From Pelomonas aquatica (GTDB taxonomy: Bacteria > Pseudomonadota > Gammaproteobacteria > Burkholderiales > Burkholderiaceae_C), in NCBI RefSeq assembly GCF_026712205.1, contig NZ_JAPPUW010000005.1:186001-250000 (forward strand): a stretch of DNA of 64,000 nt, in the 5' to 3' direction. This document shows, one piece after another, positions 1 through 45,761 of this stretch. Made by a program: the position numbers and the translations under genes. Position 1 is the first letter of the stretch; each line of letters begins with the position of its first letter. The notes under the pieces are model-generated. The model was not told where the DNA came from and did no database searches. It saw only the letters and a program-made list of their open reading frames with translations.

Positions 1-537
1 TTCTACCGCCTCAACGTCATCCAGATCCGCGTGCCGCCGCTGCGCGAGCGGCTGGAGGACCTGGGCCTGATCAGCAACCGTGTGCTGGCCCGCATCGCGC
101 AGGATGCCGGCGTGTCGCCGACGCCGCGGCTGACGGCCGGTGCGCTGCAGACGCTGTCGCGCTATGCCTTCCCGGGCAATGTGCGCGAGCTGGAGAACCT
201 GCTGCATCGCGCGCTCGCGCTGGCGGGTGGCGAGTGGATCGATGCGGACGACCTCGGCCTGCCCGATGCGCTGCTGGACGAGGGCCGCAGCGAATCGCAG
301 TTCGCGGCGCTGGACACGCCGCTGCCCGTGGCGCCGGTGTCCGAGGGCCTGAGCCTGCCCGAGCAGTTGCCGAGCGACCTGGCGCGCTATCTCGACGAAG
401 TCGAGCGCGCCATCCTGCTGCGGGCGCTGGAGCAGCACCGCTTCAACCGCACGGCCGCGGCGGCCAGCCTCGGCCTGTCGCTGCGCCAGATCCGCTACCG
501 CATGGCGCGGCTGGCAATCTCAGCAGGGGAAAGTTGA
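1..537 (+). CDS. pilR: NtrC-family sigma-54 response regulator, C-terminal part (PilR-like)
   Basis: Only the 3' end is inside the window; the gene enters at base 1 already in frame (FYRLNVIQIRVPPLRER). What is visible is the end of the AAA+ sigma-54 interaction domain, including PLRER and the FPGNVRELENLLHRA segment, then a linker, then a Fis-type helix-turn-helix near the end (RTAAAASLGLSLRQIRYRMA). This is the C-terminal layout of a bacterial enhancer-binding protein that remodels RNA polymerase with sigma-54. The length of the HTH tail and the nearby pilus chemosensory genes fit PilR, activator of pilin transcription, but the receiver domain and a pilS partner lie outside the window. The family call is firm; PilR is an inference. 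Confidence 0.75.
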   Translation, partial: FYRLNVIQIRVPPLRERLEDLGLISNRVLARIAQDAGVSPTPRLTAGALQTLSRYAFPGNVRELENLLHRALALAGGEWIDADDLGLPDALLDEGRSESQFAALDTPLPVAPVSEGLSLPEQLPSDLARYLDEVERAILLRALEQHRFNRTAAAASLGLSLRQIRYRMARLAISAGES

Positions 538-690
538 CCCCTCGTCCGGTGTGCCGCGCTGGACGCGGGCACCCCAGTCGGTCCCCCAAGGGGACGGCGA
601 TGCATGCGGCATCGAGCCGCATGCACATCGCCCGGCGGGCCGGCTTGGGGGCGGCCCGGCGCTCGGCCCGAAAATTCGCGCGTTGTCGGC
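538..690 (+). repeat. Dispersed GC-rich repeat, long form (copy A1)
   Basis: Immediately after the pilR stop lies a noncoding block with the core GGTCCCCCAAGGGGAC at about 580-595. It is followed by a hairpin-rich insert containing GGCGATGC, CATCGAGCCGC and CACATCGCC, and ends in GGCCCGGCGCTCGGCCCGAA near 674. The same block occurs inverted at 45600-45745 with only scattered differences over about 115 bases. A shorter form without the hairpin insert lies inverted at 36991-37063. No coding function is apparent. Confidence 0.75.
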
Positions 691-5653: not shown

Positions 5654-6133
5654 ATGGCAACTGCGAAGAAAGCTCCGGCCAAGAAGGTCGCCGCGACCCC
5701 GGTGAAGAAGGCCGCCGCCAAGAAGGCAGCCCCGGCGAAGAAGGCCGCTCCGGCCAAGAAGGCCGCCGCCACGCCGGTGAAGAAGGCCGCCGCCAAGAAG
5801 GCAGCCCCGGCGAAGAAGGCCGCTCCGGCCAAGAAGGCAGCGCCCGCCAAGAAGGCCGCCGCCACGCCGGTGAAGAAGGCCGCTGCCAAGAAGGTCGCCG
5901 CGCCCAAGAAGGCTGCTGCTCCCAAGAAGGCCGCCGCTCCGAAGAAGGCGGCCGCCAAGCCTGCTGCCAAGCCCGCCGCGAAGCCTGCCGCAAAGAAGGC
6001 TGCTGCTCCGAAGAAGGCCGCCGCCAAGCCTGCCCCTGCGGCCAAGCCTGCCGCTGCTGCGCCCGCCCCCGCGGCCAAGACCGCGCTGAGCCCGCAAGCC
6101 GCCTGGCCCTTCCCCACCGGCAACAAGCCCTAA
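5654..6133 (+). CDS. Histone H1-like lysine/alanine-rich DNA-binding protein
   Basis: This 159-residue protein is almost entirely built of AKKAAP, TPVKKA and KPAAKPA repeats. That gives an extended, strongly basic chain like eukaryotic H1 tails and the H1-like nucleoid proteins of Bordetella and Burkholderia. Its likely role is nucleoid compaction by non-specific DNA binding. The only non-repetitive part is the C-terminus, LSPQAAWPFPTGNKP, whose AWPFPTG motif is typical of the Burkholderiales family. AAGGAG lies six bases before ATG 5654. The DNA contains a 75-base tandem unit (5701, 5776, and 5869 after an 18-base expansion), so length is probably variable between strains. Two inverted repeats lie in its leader and two strong hairpins follow its stop. 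Confidence 0.9.
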   Translation: MATAKKAPAKKVAATPVKKAAAKKAAPAKKAAPAKKAAATPVKKAAAKKAAPAKKAAPAKKAAPAKKAAATPVKKAAAKKVAAPKKAAAPKKAAAPKKAAAKPAAKPAAKPAAKKAAAPKKAAAKPAPAAKPAAAAPAPAAKTALSPQAAWPFPTGNKP

Positions 6134-20006: not shown

Positions 20007-20114
20007 CTCAGCCGGCCCGGGCAGCCAGGCTTTGCAATAGCTTGTCGTGTATGCCGCCCTCGGGCCTCAGGCCCGGGCGGCCAAGCTTTGCAATAGCTTG
20101 TCGTGTATGCCGCC
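20007..20114. repeat. Tandem duplication of the mpl 3' end
   Basis: A 30-base sequence starting GCTTTGCAATAGCTTGTCG occurs at 20029-20058 and again at 20085-20114, exactly 56 bases apart, with similar but diverged flanks (GCCCGGGC) before each copy. The second copy is the coding end of mpl. The first lies past its stop and would encode the same last residues, GGIHDKLLQSLAARA. It is thus a partial tandem duplication of the gene tail. Confidence 0.85.
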
Positions 20115-36411: not shown

Positions 36412-36990
36412 ATGCCCGCCGACCGGATCGTCCTGACCAACCAGTTCCTCATCGCCATGCCGGGCATGGCCGACGAGGCTTTCGCAGGCACGGTGGTCTA
36501 CCTCTGCGAGCACAACGACAACGGCGCCCTCGGCCTCGTCATCAACAAGCCCATCTCGCTGACGCTGGGCCATCTGTTCGAGAAGGTCGAGCTGAGCCCG
36601 CCGGCCGACCCGCTGGCCGAGACGCCGGTCTTCTACGGCGGCCCGGTGCAGACCGACCGCGGCTTCGTGCTGCACGAGCCGCTGGACGAGGAGGGCGGCC
36701 ACTACAACGCGACGCTGGCCGTGCCCGGCGGCCTGGAGATGACCACCAGCCGCGACGTGCTGGAGGCGCTGTCCAACGGCGCCGGCCCCAAGAAGCTGCT
36801 CGTCACGCTGGGCTACAGCGGCTGGGCCGCCGGCCAGCTGGAGGAAGAGATCGGCCGCAACGGCTGGCTGACCGTCGACGCGGCGCCGGAGATCATCTTC
36901 GACACGCCGGTCGAGCAGCGCTACGAGAAGGCCCTGGGCCTGCTGGGCATCGACCCGCGGATGCTCAGCTCCGATGCGGGGCATGCGTGA
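36412..36990 (+). CDS. YqgE/AlgH family protein
   Basis: This 192-residue cytoplasmic protein belongs to UPF0301 (YqgE, called AlgH in Pseudomonas). Conserved parts are NQFLIAMPGM near the N-terminus, GALGLVINKP, FYGGPVQTDRGFVLH and LGYSGWAAGQLEEEI. The molecular function is not settled. As in many proteobacteria it precedes ruvX/yqgF, with pyrR and pyrB following, so an operon is likely. Its stop is separated from ruvX by a repeat element. Confidence 0.92.
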   Translation: MPADRIVLTNQFLIAMPGMADEAFAGTVVYLCEHNDNGALGLVINKPISLTLGHLFEKVELSPPADPLAETPVFYGGPVQTDRGFVLHEPLDEEGGHYNATLAVPGGLEMTTSRDVLEALSNGAGPKKLLVTLGYSGWAAGQLEEEIGRNGWLTVDAAPEIIFDTPVEQRYEKALGLLGIDPRMLSSDAGHA

Positions 36991-37076
36991 GCGCCGAGCG
37001 CTGGGCCGCTCCCGAGCCGGCGTGCGTCCCCTTGGGGGACCGTCCGACGCTGGCGTCGGACGAGGGGCATGCGTGA
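36978..37076 (-). repeat. Dispersed repeat with perfect 13-base direct repeats, copy A3 (algH-ruvX)
   Basis: A 73-base element (36991-37063), inverted relative to A1, contains GTCCCCTTGGGGGACCG and a GTCCGACGC/GCGTCGGAC hairpin. It is bounded by identical copies of GGGGCATGCGTGA at 36978-36990 and 37064-37076. The left copy ends with the algH stop; the right copy ends in the first base of the ruvX ATG. This is the short form of the block seen at 538-690 and 45600-45745. Confidence 0.85.
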
Positions 37077-37474
37077 TGGCCGTCGTGGCTGACGCGTCCC
37101 GCCTTCAATCCTTTCTTGCTTTTGATTTCGGCCTGCGCCGCATCGGCGTGGCCAGCGGCACGCGCCTGCTCGGCGCGGCCGAGCCGCGCGGCACGCTCAA
37201 GGGCGGCGACTTCGACGCCATCGCGGCCCTCATCCAGACCTGGCAGCCCGACGCCCTCGTCATCGGCGTGCCGCGCCACCCAGACGGCGCGCCGCACGAG
37301 ATGACGGCCAAGGCGCAGAACTTCGGCCGCCGCCTGGCCGGGCGCTACCACCTGCCGGTCTTCGAGGTGGACGAGCGCTACACCAGCGTGGAGGCCGAAG
37401 GCCAAGGTGCGCACGACGTGGATGCCGCCGCCGCCGCGCTGATCCTTGAACAGTTTTTCCGAGAACACCCATGA
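37076..37474 (+). CDS. ruvX: Putative pre-16S rRNA nuclease RuvX/YqgF
   Basis: This 132-residue RNase H-like protein is thought to trim the 5' end of 16S rRNA or act on branched DNA. The fold is shown by FLAFDFGLRRIGVASG, VIGVPRHPDG and FEVDERYTSVEAE, which carry its catalytic Asp and Glu positions, with a final Asp in DVDAAAAALILEQFF. The start at 37076 gives a normal N-terminus. It overlaps pyrR by four bases (ATGA). Confidence 0.93.
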   Translation: MAVVADASRLQSFLAFDFGLRRIGVASGTRLLGAAEPRGTLKGGDFDAIAALIQTWQPDALVIGVPRHPDGAPHEMTAKAQNFGRRLAGRYHLPVFEVDERYTSVEAEGQGAHDVDAAAAALILEQFFREHP

Positions 37475-38930: not shown

Positions 38931-40231
38931 AGATACTCATCAAAGGCGGCCGGCTGATCGACCCGGCATCCAACCTCGACCGCGTCGGCGACCTCGCCGT
39001 CGCCAACGGCCGCATCGTCAAGCTCGGCGATGTCGGCGAGTTCGCCGCGGAGCGCACCATCGATGCGGCCGGCCTCGTCGTCGCGCCCGGCCTGGTCGAT
39101 CTGTGCGCGCGGCTGCGCGAGCCCGGCCACGAGCACGAGGGCCTGCTGGAAAGCGAGCTCGCCGCCGCCGCCGCCGGCGGCGTGACCAGCCTGGTCTGCC
39201 CGCCCGACACCGACCCGGTGCTGGACGAGCCCGGCCTCGTCGAGATGCTGAAGTTCCGCGCCCGCAAGCTCAGCCGCTGCCGCCTCTTCCCGCTGGGCGC
39301 GCTGACGCGCCAGCTCGAAGGTGCCGCGCTGACCGAGATGGCCGAGCTGACCGAGGCCGGCTGCATCGGCTTCTCGCAGGCCGAGGCGCCCATCCGCGAC
39401 ACCATGGTGCTGAGCCGCGCGCTGCAGTACGCGGCCACCTATGGCTACACCGTCTGGCTGCGCCCGCAGGATGCGTACCTGAGCGGCGGCGTGGCCGCCA
39501 GCGGCTCGGTCGCCACGCGGCTGGGCCTGTCCGGCGTGCCCGTCGCGGCCGAGACGATTGCGCTGCACACCCTCTTCGAGCTGGTCCGCACGACCGGCGC
39601 CCGCGTGCACATCTGCCGCCTCAGCAGCGCCGCCGGCGTGGAGCTGGTGCGCGCGGCCAAGCGCGAGGGCCTGCCCGTCACGGCCGACGTGTCCATCAAC
39701 TCCCTGCACCTGAGCGACGTGGACATCGGCTACTTCGACTCGGCCATGCGGCTGACGCCGCCGCTGCGCCAGGGCCGCGACCGCGACGCGCTGCGGGCCG
39801 GCCTGGCCGACGGCAGCATCGACGCGCTGGTGTCCGACCACATGCCCGTCACCGTCGACGAGAAGGCCGTGCCCTTCGCCGAGGCCACGCCGGGCGCGAC
39901 GGGCCTGGAGCTGCTGCTGAGCCTGGCCATGCGCTGGGCGCGCGACGCCGGCCTGCCGCTGCCGCGCGCGCTGGCCGTTGTCACGGCCGAGCCGGTGCGC
40001 GTGCTGGGCAGTGCGCTGGGTTCGCTGGCCGCCAGCGCGGGCCGCCTCGTCGAGGGCGGCGTGGCCGATGTCTGCGTCTTCGATGCCGGCGCGAGCTGGG
40101 CCGTCGCGCCCGAGCGGCTGGCCAGCCAGGGCAAGCACACGCCTTTCGAGTTCTCGCGCAGCGGCTTCGAGCTGCCGGCGCGCGTGCGCTGCACGCTGGT
40201 TGCCGGCCACCTCGCCTACGAGGCTGAATGA
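38927..40231 (+). CDS. pyrX: Dihydroorotase-like protein, probably inactive (PyrX/PyrC')
   Basis: This 434-residue amidohydrolase-fold protein is homologous to dihydroorotase. The metal motif that should read HxH after PGLVDL is C60-A61-R62, so two zinc ligands are missing. The later Asp survives in LVSDHMP. In Pseudomonas such PyrC' proteins have no dihydroorotase activity and serve as a structural partner of PyrB; the operon position says the same here. A genuine pyrC must lie elsewhere. The stop duplicates into the flank of repeat B2. Confidence 0.93.
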
Positions 40232-40315
40232 GGGCCCCCACGCCCGCTTCGCGTGCTGCCCCCCGAGGGGGCGTGACCTCCCTTGGGGCGGCCCGGCGGG
40301 AGGTCGAATGAGGGC
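40223..40315 (+). repeat. Dispersed repeat with flanking direct repeats, copy B2 (pyrX-plsC)
   Basis: A 67-base element (40236-40302) with CTGCCCCCCGAGGGGGCG and CCTTGGGGCGGCCCGGCGGG is flanked by GCTGAATGAGGGC (40223-40235) and GTCGAATGAGGGC (40303-40315), 11 of 13 identical, with an exact ten-base core. The left repeat contains the pyrX stop; the right one contains the plsC start in the same GAATGAGG context. Confidence 0.8.
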
Positions 40316-44101: not shown

Positions 44102-45118
44102 ATGACGACGATGAAGATCAGCGTGCTCGGCGCCGGGGCCTGGGGCACGGCGCTGGCCATCCAGGCCGCCAACGCGGGCCATGAGGTCAGCCTGTGGGGG
44201 CGCGACGCGGCGGCCATCGACGCGATGCGCGTCAGCCGCCGCAACGCCGCCTACCTGCCCGACAGCGAACTGCCCTCAGCCCTGGCGCTGACGGCCGACC
44301 GCGGCGCGGCCATCGCCCACGCGGCCCGGGGCCTGACCATCGTCGCGACGCCGATGTCCGGCCTGCGCGAGACGCTGGCGGCCCTGCCTTCGACGCAGCG
44401 CGTGCTGTGGCTGTGCAAGGGCTTCGAGGCCGGCACGGGCCGGCTCGGCCACGAGATCGCGCGCGAGCTGTGGCCGGCCATGCCAAAACTGTCGGTTGGC
44501 GTGCTGTCCGGCCCGAGCTTCGCGCAGGAGGTGGCGGCCGGCCGGCCGACGGCCCTGGTCGCGGCCAGCGAGGACGCCGGCCTGGCGCGCGCGGCCGTCG
44601 AGGCCTTCCACGGTGAACGGCTGCGCGTCTACACGTCGAGCGACCCGGTGGGCGTCGAAGTCGGCGGCGCGGTGAAGAACGTGATGGCGATCGCCGTCGG
44701 CGTCTGCGACGGCCTGAGCGCATCGGCGCCGGATGCGCCCGGCCTTAACGCGCGCGCCGCGCTGATCACGCGCGGCCTGGCCGAGATGCTGCGCCTGGGC
44801 CTGGCCCTGGGCGCCAGGGCCGAGACCTTCATGGGCCTGTCGGGCCTCGGCGACCTGGTGCTGACGGCCACCGGCGACCTGTCGCGCAACCGTCGCGTCG
44901 GCCTGATGCTGGCCCAGGGCCTGGGCCTGCCGCAGATCCTGGCCCGGCTCGGCCATGTGGCCGAGGGCGTCTACAGCGCGCCGACCGTGCTGGCGCGGGC
45001 CCGCGCCGCCGGTGTCGAGATGCCGATCACCGAGGCCATGGTGGCGCTGCTGGACGGCCGGCTGCGCGCCGGTGAGGCGGTCGAGCGATTGATGGGGCGC
45101 GAGGCCCGCGCGGAATAG
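44102..45118 (+). CDS. gpsA: NAD(P)H-dependent glycerol-3-phosphate dehydrogenase
   Basis: GpsA reduces dihydroxyacetone phosphate to sn-glycerol-3-phosphate for phospholipid synthesis. The 338-residue protein has the dinucleotide motif [16 protein letters not shown], the [16 protein letters not shown] segment, the catalytic Lys in [13 protein letters not shown] and [20 protein letters not shown]. Length is normal. The gene ends one base before the convergent trmL stop. Confidence 0.97.
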
Positions 45119-45599: not shown

Positions 45600-45745
45600 T
45601 ATCTCGCCGGTGCACGGAGTGCATTCGGGCCGAGCGCCGGGCCGCCCCAAGCCGGCCCGTCTGGCGATGTGCGAGCGGCTCGATGCTGCGAGCATCGCCG
45701 TCCCCTTGGGGGACCGACCAGACGCGCTCGCGTTCAGCGCGGCGA
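45600..45745 (-). repeat. Dispersed GC-rich repeat, long form (copy A2)
   Basis: Read on the minus strand this block contains GGTCCCCCAAGGGGACGG, the hairpin insert and GGCCCGGCGCTCGGCCCGAA in the same order as copy A1 at 538-690. It occupies nearly the whole comF-trmL gap. Just outside it GCACGGAGTG (45612-45621) and CACTCCGTGC (45763-45772) form a ten-base inverted pair, the latter overlapping the comF stop. No 13-base direct repeat was seen here. Confidence 0.8.
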
Positions 45746-45761
45746 GACCGGGCAAGGGGCT

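Follow-up and report, generated by a model that had tools for sequence, protein, structure and literature searches.

The junction between algH and ruvX in the window, by which we mean the whole 64,000-nt stretch of DNA analysed, carries a copy of a short repeat, R1, whose insertion, fixed position and orientation, covarying structure and reading frame may be regarded as established from sequence comparison. R1 is probably a coupling-preserving repeat, such that a ribosome finishing the upstream gene would pass through a micro-ORF to the downstream gene. We infer that the micro-ORF is translated, that ribosomes are relayed through it, that the GAGGGG end of the element acts as a Shine-Dalgarno (SD) sequence and that R1 is mobile.

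An inserted repeat between algH and ruvX

On the + strand, algH (36412..36990; ORF call, DUF179/AlgH-like, Pfam PF02622) ends in the TGA at 36988-36990, and ruvX (37076..37474, +; ORF call, Pfam PF03652) begins with the ATG at 37076-37078, an in-frame GTG at 37073 being another possible start. The 13-base sequence GGGGCATGCGTGA occurs twice, once as the 3' end of algH (36978..36990, +; the ancestral copy, present singly in three congeners with empty sites) and once at 37064..37076 (+), where it leads into the ruvX ATG as TGATG. The R1 copy, a 78-nt short form recognised by the R1 model and by pair counts, occupies 36991..37068 (+). Because the 73 bases between the GGGGCATGCGTGA copies make up most of this 78-base family member, the element and the right-hand copy share GGGGC, which doubles as the conserved R1 end. 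Pair counts place three helices at 36991-36996/37018-37023, 37026-37031/37035-37040 and 37044-37049/37054-37059 (+), followed by the Shine-Dalgarno-like end GAGGGG (37062..37067, +; putative SD); after this motif and one C, the in-frame GTG lies 4 nt on and the ATG 7 nt on. A predicted micro-ORF (GTG..TGA, 29 codons, VSAERWAAPEPACVPLGDRPTLASDEGHA and a stop) extends over 36987..37076 (+), with its GTG overlapping the algH stop as GTGA and its TGA overlapping the ruvX ATG as TGATG. An earlier note on this DNA had described the two repeats and the element and had reasoned from TGATG; its description holds, positions and sequences included, and both genes are intact around the insert, as it had stated. 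It had overlooked the micro-ORF, which spans the distance from the algH stop to the ruvX ATG, and coupling may therefore be handed on rather than lost.

Thirteen of 18 same-genus algH/ruvX junctions read TGATG without any insert (L062, L064, L066-L076), two carry a long form of the family in the opposite orientation directly after the algH stop (L077, L078), and the remaining three deviate (L063, L065, L079). In L065, as well as in L119 from the named-genome set, the ruvX start is GTGAGCGCTGAGCGCCGGGCCGC, which resembles an element's left end fused to the gene. Among 30 loci (the host genome and 29 relatives), GGGGCATGCGTGA is found twice in the host genome and once each in L067, L068 and L073, where it is followed by TGATG. 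The empty junctions of congeners, three of them with a single GGGGCATGCGTGA, therefore identify the algH/ruvX element as an insertion; close relatives thus hold the empty sites that the earlier note had anticipated, and with 48 BLAST matches in the host genome (5.12 Mb, 56 contigs) its picture of an inserted, genome-wide repeated element is borne out. A broader survey of this junction in 80 named genomes and four other loci, including that of the window, yielded 61 short junctions, 22 long ones and one without a ruvX match (L157), which was set aside; the closest AlgH loci were those of Roseateles and Pelomonas. Inserts or tandem arrays of other types were seen at algH/ruvX in other Burkholderiales (L139, L140, L145, L147, L153, L161, L169, L183, L187), and six of these nine are open from a start at the algH stop to the ruvX start. 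A second short type, with the end GAAGGGTGC, occurs in L108 and L081, and the micro-ORF of the latter encodes MSAAQGRPKQARSRLAGQAAGRRVPQ up to its stop.

Empty sites were also found for eight further R1 copies, at murC, rsgA, leuC, panB, purU, accA, dapC and an aminotransferase gene (names read from the translations). Of 73 orthologous junctions from ten congeners, each of ~215 bases, 66 had no insert at the start, four contained an R1 copy (L287, L291, L292 and, in degenerate form, L330) and three another insert (L297, L298, L329). One empty leuC junction is 99% identical over the 113 nt downstream of the site. Stop/start overlaps are present at the empty sites of leuC (ATGA), murC (GTGA), rsgA (ATGA) and accA (TGATG); those of purU are mixed, and the neighbour gene of dapC varies among some congeners. 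At panB and the aminotransferase gene the empty site has a free start, and this old start now opens the micro-ORF, so that R1 seems to target the start codon rather than the stop/start overlap itself.

The 13-base repeat and its single-copy empty sites agree with R1 being a classical transposable element that makes a 13-base target-site duplication at stop/start junctions, the micro-ORF being incidental. A second intra-operon insertion in the window (40226..40315, +; repeat scan, Pfam), between genes for an amidohydrolase, which we take to be pyrC, and an acyltransferase, points the same way: a 10-base repeat, GAATGAGGGC, is located at 40226-40235 and 40306-40315, with a micro-ORF of 27 residues at 40228-40311, and 14 of 18 congeners lack the insert, the others having a 15-nt gap (two) or inserts >50 nt (L354, L355; the 19th locus is the host genome). 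This insert is of a reverse-oriented related type, pieces similar to which occur elsewhere in many of the genomes searched from the genus. Across the 58 R1 copies that have a start codon at each end, however, the flanks of the same site match over a mean of 4.10 bases, versus 3.75 for swapped flanks; the observed mean was reached in 7 of 300 permutations and falls to about 3.95 without the algH/ruvX copy, the only one of the 58 with a match of ≥10 bases. Apart from the functional NTGA, R1 copies generally lack site-specific repeats, so the 13-base duplication does not hold up as a habit of the element, and the scarcity of direct repeats genome-wide, which the earlier note had named as the observation that would speak against it, largely applies to the R1 family. 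GGGGC is common to the algH end and the R1 end (GACGCGGGGC in relatives, GACGAGGGGC in the element), leaving only 8 bases that need a target origin. Given the lack of family-wide repeats and the GGGGC already present at the R1 end, the algH/ruvX repeat is best seen as a real duplication of ~8 target bases (ATGCGTGA) beside the shared GGGGC. In addition, Y1, the sole transposase family examined, is unlinked to R1. We therefore regard a classical, target-duplicating transposable element as quite unlikely here; target duplications do arise at some sites.

Two other intra-operon elements in the window had been credited with the same plan; the one at 40226-40315 fits, but long relatives of R1 at 537..669 (- strand, immediately behind the stop of a gene on the + strand) and 45627..45760 (+ strand, adjoining a gene stop on the opposite strand) lack it by eye. 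The direct-repeat scan of the window further contains a candidate 7-base repeat case at 44613-44675. Other repeats in the window are two 45-base direct repeats, 96% alike, whose starts are 56 bases apart (20014-20114), and, at 5665-6057, an array of 10 overlapping 105-base repeats whose starts are mostly spaced by 18 or 39 bases.

Spread, structure and position of the R1 family

The core CGAGCGCYGGGCCGC has 49 exact occurrences in the host genome, at least one of which (L101) stands without the rest of the element, and with up to 1 mismatch it was counted 51+57 times, compared with 13+11 for the reversed pattern; this repetition is not due to chance. The family comprises a long form, mostly 116-136 nt in length, and a short form (~78 nt) that ends in GAGGGGC. 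Using a model built from thirteen short copies of the host genome and containing three helices, we detected R1 in all 20 genus genomes searched (E ≤ 0.01; 18-132 matches each, the weaker ones including long forms) and, at E ≤ 1e-5, in 64 of the 200 family genomes searched, which belong to 49 of the 141 genera. In an order-wide draw of 250 genomes, the host genome was the sole R1 match among those listed (20 other genomes were listed, 6 of them from the same family; 229 were unlisted), and within the order, among the matches listed, R1 was confined to one Burkholderiales family. In the host genome, several contigs (C7, C21, C25 and C32) start some 100 nt ahead of an element, and the left flank of L002 is also that of L005, from which assembly forks at the elements appear likely.

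For detailed comparison, 107 R1 matches from 100 genus loci (L279 left out) were reduced to 103 by dropping two L199 sites listed again under L217 and two weak partial matches (L213, L198). A second set, of 45 copies, came from 39 loci in 30 other genera, taken from the strongest listed matches rather than as a random sample; the 40th stretch fetched (L417), a filler without a known match, gave none. The prediction for this set was fixed before its loci were read. The folding pattern consists of three separate hairpins, and pairing is maintained in 95.6% of cells in the 107 genus matches, with 199 both-side changes compared with 39.3 in shuffles, and in 98.7% of cells in the 45 matches from other genera (41 both-side changes compared with 6.3); both alignments were fitted to the model, which favours it, and sliding controls pair 29-64% of cells. 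The structure of R1 is thus one of three covarying hairpins. By itself, the algH/ruvX element folds unremarkably (z -1.10; 23 of 200 shuffles fold equally well), and the structural evidence for R1 is its covariation across copies rather than a single-sequence fold. Rfam gave no match at the gathering score for the window and five loci, Pfam and NCBIfam none for the element or three micro-peptides, and no description of R1 was found in the literature searched, the coverage of which is thin for subscription papers.

R1 is placed with precision relative to genes. Most genus copies (81/103) lie between a stop and a start on the same strand, whereas 9 have the stop only, 9 the start only and 4 neither. 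The first long-ORF start is exactly at +4 in 66 of the 103, and any NTG is found at +4 after the GAGGGGC end in 73, compared with 0-7 for each of the other offsets from 0 to 11; in other genera, 27 of 45 copies have the NTG at +4 and each other offset 0-4. In 137 of all 148 copies, GAGG falls within the final 8 nt. This distribution is indicative of a fixed position and orientation of R1 at gene starts. The long copies of the host genome differ in this respect: a stop on the opposite strand was found within 11 nt of the GAGGGGC end in 24 of 35 and 31 nt away in 1, with none for 10 (ends were located by pattern, and two of the 37 long copies, lacking a recognisable end, were not scored). The long forms thus abut opposite-strand stops as if they were 3' UTR elements.

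The micro-ORF and its reading frame

Of the 103 genus copies, 79 have a start codon that overlaps the upstream stop or directly adjoins it; of the others, 13 lack any upstream stop within 80 nt and 11 lack an overlapping start. The micro-ORF opened by this start ends at +8, in the TGA of the downstream NTGA, in 46 of the 79, at +3 in 8 and elsewhere in another 8, and it stops in the spacer or the element in only 3; the remaining 14 run >60 nt past the element, 12 of them >400 nt into the downstream gene. Among the 28 second-set copies that have an overlapping start upstream, the ORF ends at +8 in 19 and at +9 and +11 in 2, runs >60 nt on in 7 (in L415 through a tandem copy) and stops inside in none. 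In L236, the leader of a pseudopilin-like gene reads as R1 peptide up to GFTLLE, presumably the pseudopilin cleavage motif.

We envisage that R1 settles at a gene start inside an operon. A typical copy has three hairpins and ends in the Shine-Dalgarno-like GAGGGG, with a start codon 4 nt beyond its end. The old start of the gene, often overlapping the upstream stop as NTGA, now opens a micro-ORF across the element that terminates in a TGA overlapping the new start, and a ribosome coming from the upstream gene could reinitiate on the micro-ORF and so arrive at the downstream gene. The insertion would thus be tolerated in a translationally coupled operon. Coupling through ATGA and TGATG is described in the accessible text of PMC6728339. 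Reinitiation over 38 nt in E. coli was down by 80-90% in two gene pairs and zero in a third, according to the text available of PMC10666635, so an untranslated insert of 86 nt should uncouple the genes. Conversely, structures after stop codons served in a synthetic operon as translational insulators that hinder reinitiation (PMC7518266, as far as its text was available), and strong R1 hairpins could likewise hinder it, which speaks against an easy relay.

Openness of the micro-ORF alone is weak evidence. Of the 58 copies with an upstream overlapping start and a +4 start, 53 give a relay, 1 a fusion and 4 fail, and an open path (relay or fusion) survives shuffling of the element in 39.3 of 58 cases. 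The exact frame is more informative: a 1-nt deletion leaves 11 relays, 8 fusions and 39 failures, and a 2-nt deletion 8 relays, 44 fusions and 6 failures, although these counts are not independent, R1 copies sharing descent. A TGA stands immediately ahead of the start in 7 of 10 second-frame copies versus 7 of 46 (Fisher P 0.001). The algH/ruvX junction taken alone proves little, because its 22 long versions give 16 relays, 1 fusion and 3 failures (2 lack an overlapping start), that is, a relay or fusion in 17 of 20, where 11.8 are expected from shuffles and 16 are left after a 2-nt deletion (6 after a 1-nt deletion).

It is conceivable, though unlikely in our view, that R1 serves operon genes as a structured regulatory RNA or as a portable ribosome-binding site, the open frames being a by-product of GC-richness, an explanation that would accommodate the covariation in three helices, the fixed distance from GAGGGG to the start, the unconserved amino acids and the frequency of open frames by chance. 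It fits less well with the frame-specific results, including the spacers between the upstream stop and the element, whose length is divisible by 3 at 55 of 72 sites, and with copies that continue, uninterrupted by a stop, into the downstream gene. Tandem arrays are likewise in frame: five tandem 90-nt copies in L408 form a single ORF from ATGA to ATGA, and two tandem copies in L403 one ORF ending at the downstream start; L415 also has two copies. The frame tests, the 3n spacers and the in-frame tandem copies seem to us the strongest signs that the frame matters. Frame regularity might nevertheless be inherited, if an element of fixed length always enters NTGA with 4 bases shared, with no selection for a relay. 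A left boundary common to many copies, seen as a spacer of 0 or 3 at 22 of 72 sites, conforms to such inheritance, but spacers of ≥5 nt are also mostly multiples of 3 (33/48), and, among copies with the 1-nt deletion, 7 of 16 copies of 77 nt have the frame-restoring spacer class and 7 of 12 copies of 78 nt a compensating base, the rest of each group having none. Frame regularity by inheritance alone accordingly appears rather improbable to us.

Under the relay that we favour, it seems to be the frame rather than the peptide that is kept in R1, since amino acids drift: differences at codon positions 1/2/3 number 73/53/64 in the element, compared with 37/16/103 in the downstream genes. A function of the micro-peptide itself, which was also considered, is unlikely given this drift between copies.

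Wider meaning and comparison with known repeats

Ribosome-relaying, start-codon-seeking repeats may have evolved more than once, as the mycobacterial MIRUs and as R1 plus at least one further Burkholderiales type, a view that we hold only tentatively. The further types would be the reverse-oriented amidohydrolase/acyltransferase element and the other algH/ruvX inserts, kept as micro-ORFs. If so, coupled operons would be a general niche for small mobile DNA, and repeats would be a source of new N-terminal extensions. If the relay reading of R1 holds, the MIRU lifestyle, start-codon insertion with coupling kept, would extend beyond mycobacteria. Many species have several copies per genome, and their filled and empty junctions can be used to test how far operons depend on the stop/start overlap, and could also show how hairpins, SD and micro-ORF divide the work. 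R1 may moreover explain annotation problems, namely wrong gene starts and odd N-terminal extensions, such as that of the ABC-transporter gene of L002, presumably livF.

Among other small repeats, the REP/BIME sequences with their REP-associated tyrosine transposase (RAYT) resemble R1 in being palindromic, intergenic and present in many copies, as described in the text available of PMC2817692, and differ from it in that R1 has a gene-start anatomy. One to three Y1 transposase genes are present in each of the 20 genus genomes searched, as a REP/BIME-type sequence moved by a RAYT would lead one to expect, but R1 was found within about 1.5 kb at 1 of 30 Y1 loci; with 29 of 30 loci having no linked R1, a RAYT origin is without support and we consider it very improbable. 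Chunjie, a MITE of Geobacter uraniireducens, is likewise a small repeated element, described in the accessible part of PMC10969869 as having conserved terminal inverted repeats and direct repeats, whereas R1 has no family-wide direct repeats; site-specific ones, a trait of transposons and MITEs that make target-site duplications, were absent across 58 R1 copies, that at algH/ruvX excepted. Rickettsia palindromic elements (RPE) lie in intergenic regions and within protein genes, according to the portion available of PMC2229807; R1, by contrast, lies at gene starts and mostly forms a separate micro-ORF, with run-on of >60 nt past the element in 14 of the 79 genus copies and in 7 of the 28 from other genera.

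The closest parallel is provided by the MIRUs. These also occur in tandem copies, and neither three covarying hairpins nor a GAGGGG end is known for them. The text available of a 2025 review (PMC12548453, citing Supply et al. 1997) describes them as apparently mobile and inserting at start codons with minimal impact, their ORF being coupled to the gene with a -4 spacing, so that the earlier note's impression that no described element has this habit must be given up. Compared by description only, MIRUs and R1 are both short repeats with an internal ORF at gene starts and with tandem copies. R1 shares the start-codon location (81 of 103 copies between same-strand stop and start, NTG at +4 in 73 of 103) and the -4 overlap of the ORF (46 of 79 ending at +8 as NTGA, and 19 of 28 in other genera). 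It differs in its host, which is not mycobacterial, the closest AlgH loci being those of Roseateles and Pelomonas, in the copies that continue into downstream genes and in the long relatives that abut opposite-strand stops. The best reading of these likenesses and differences is that R1 would work like the MIRUs, in another lineage.
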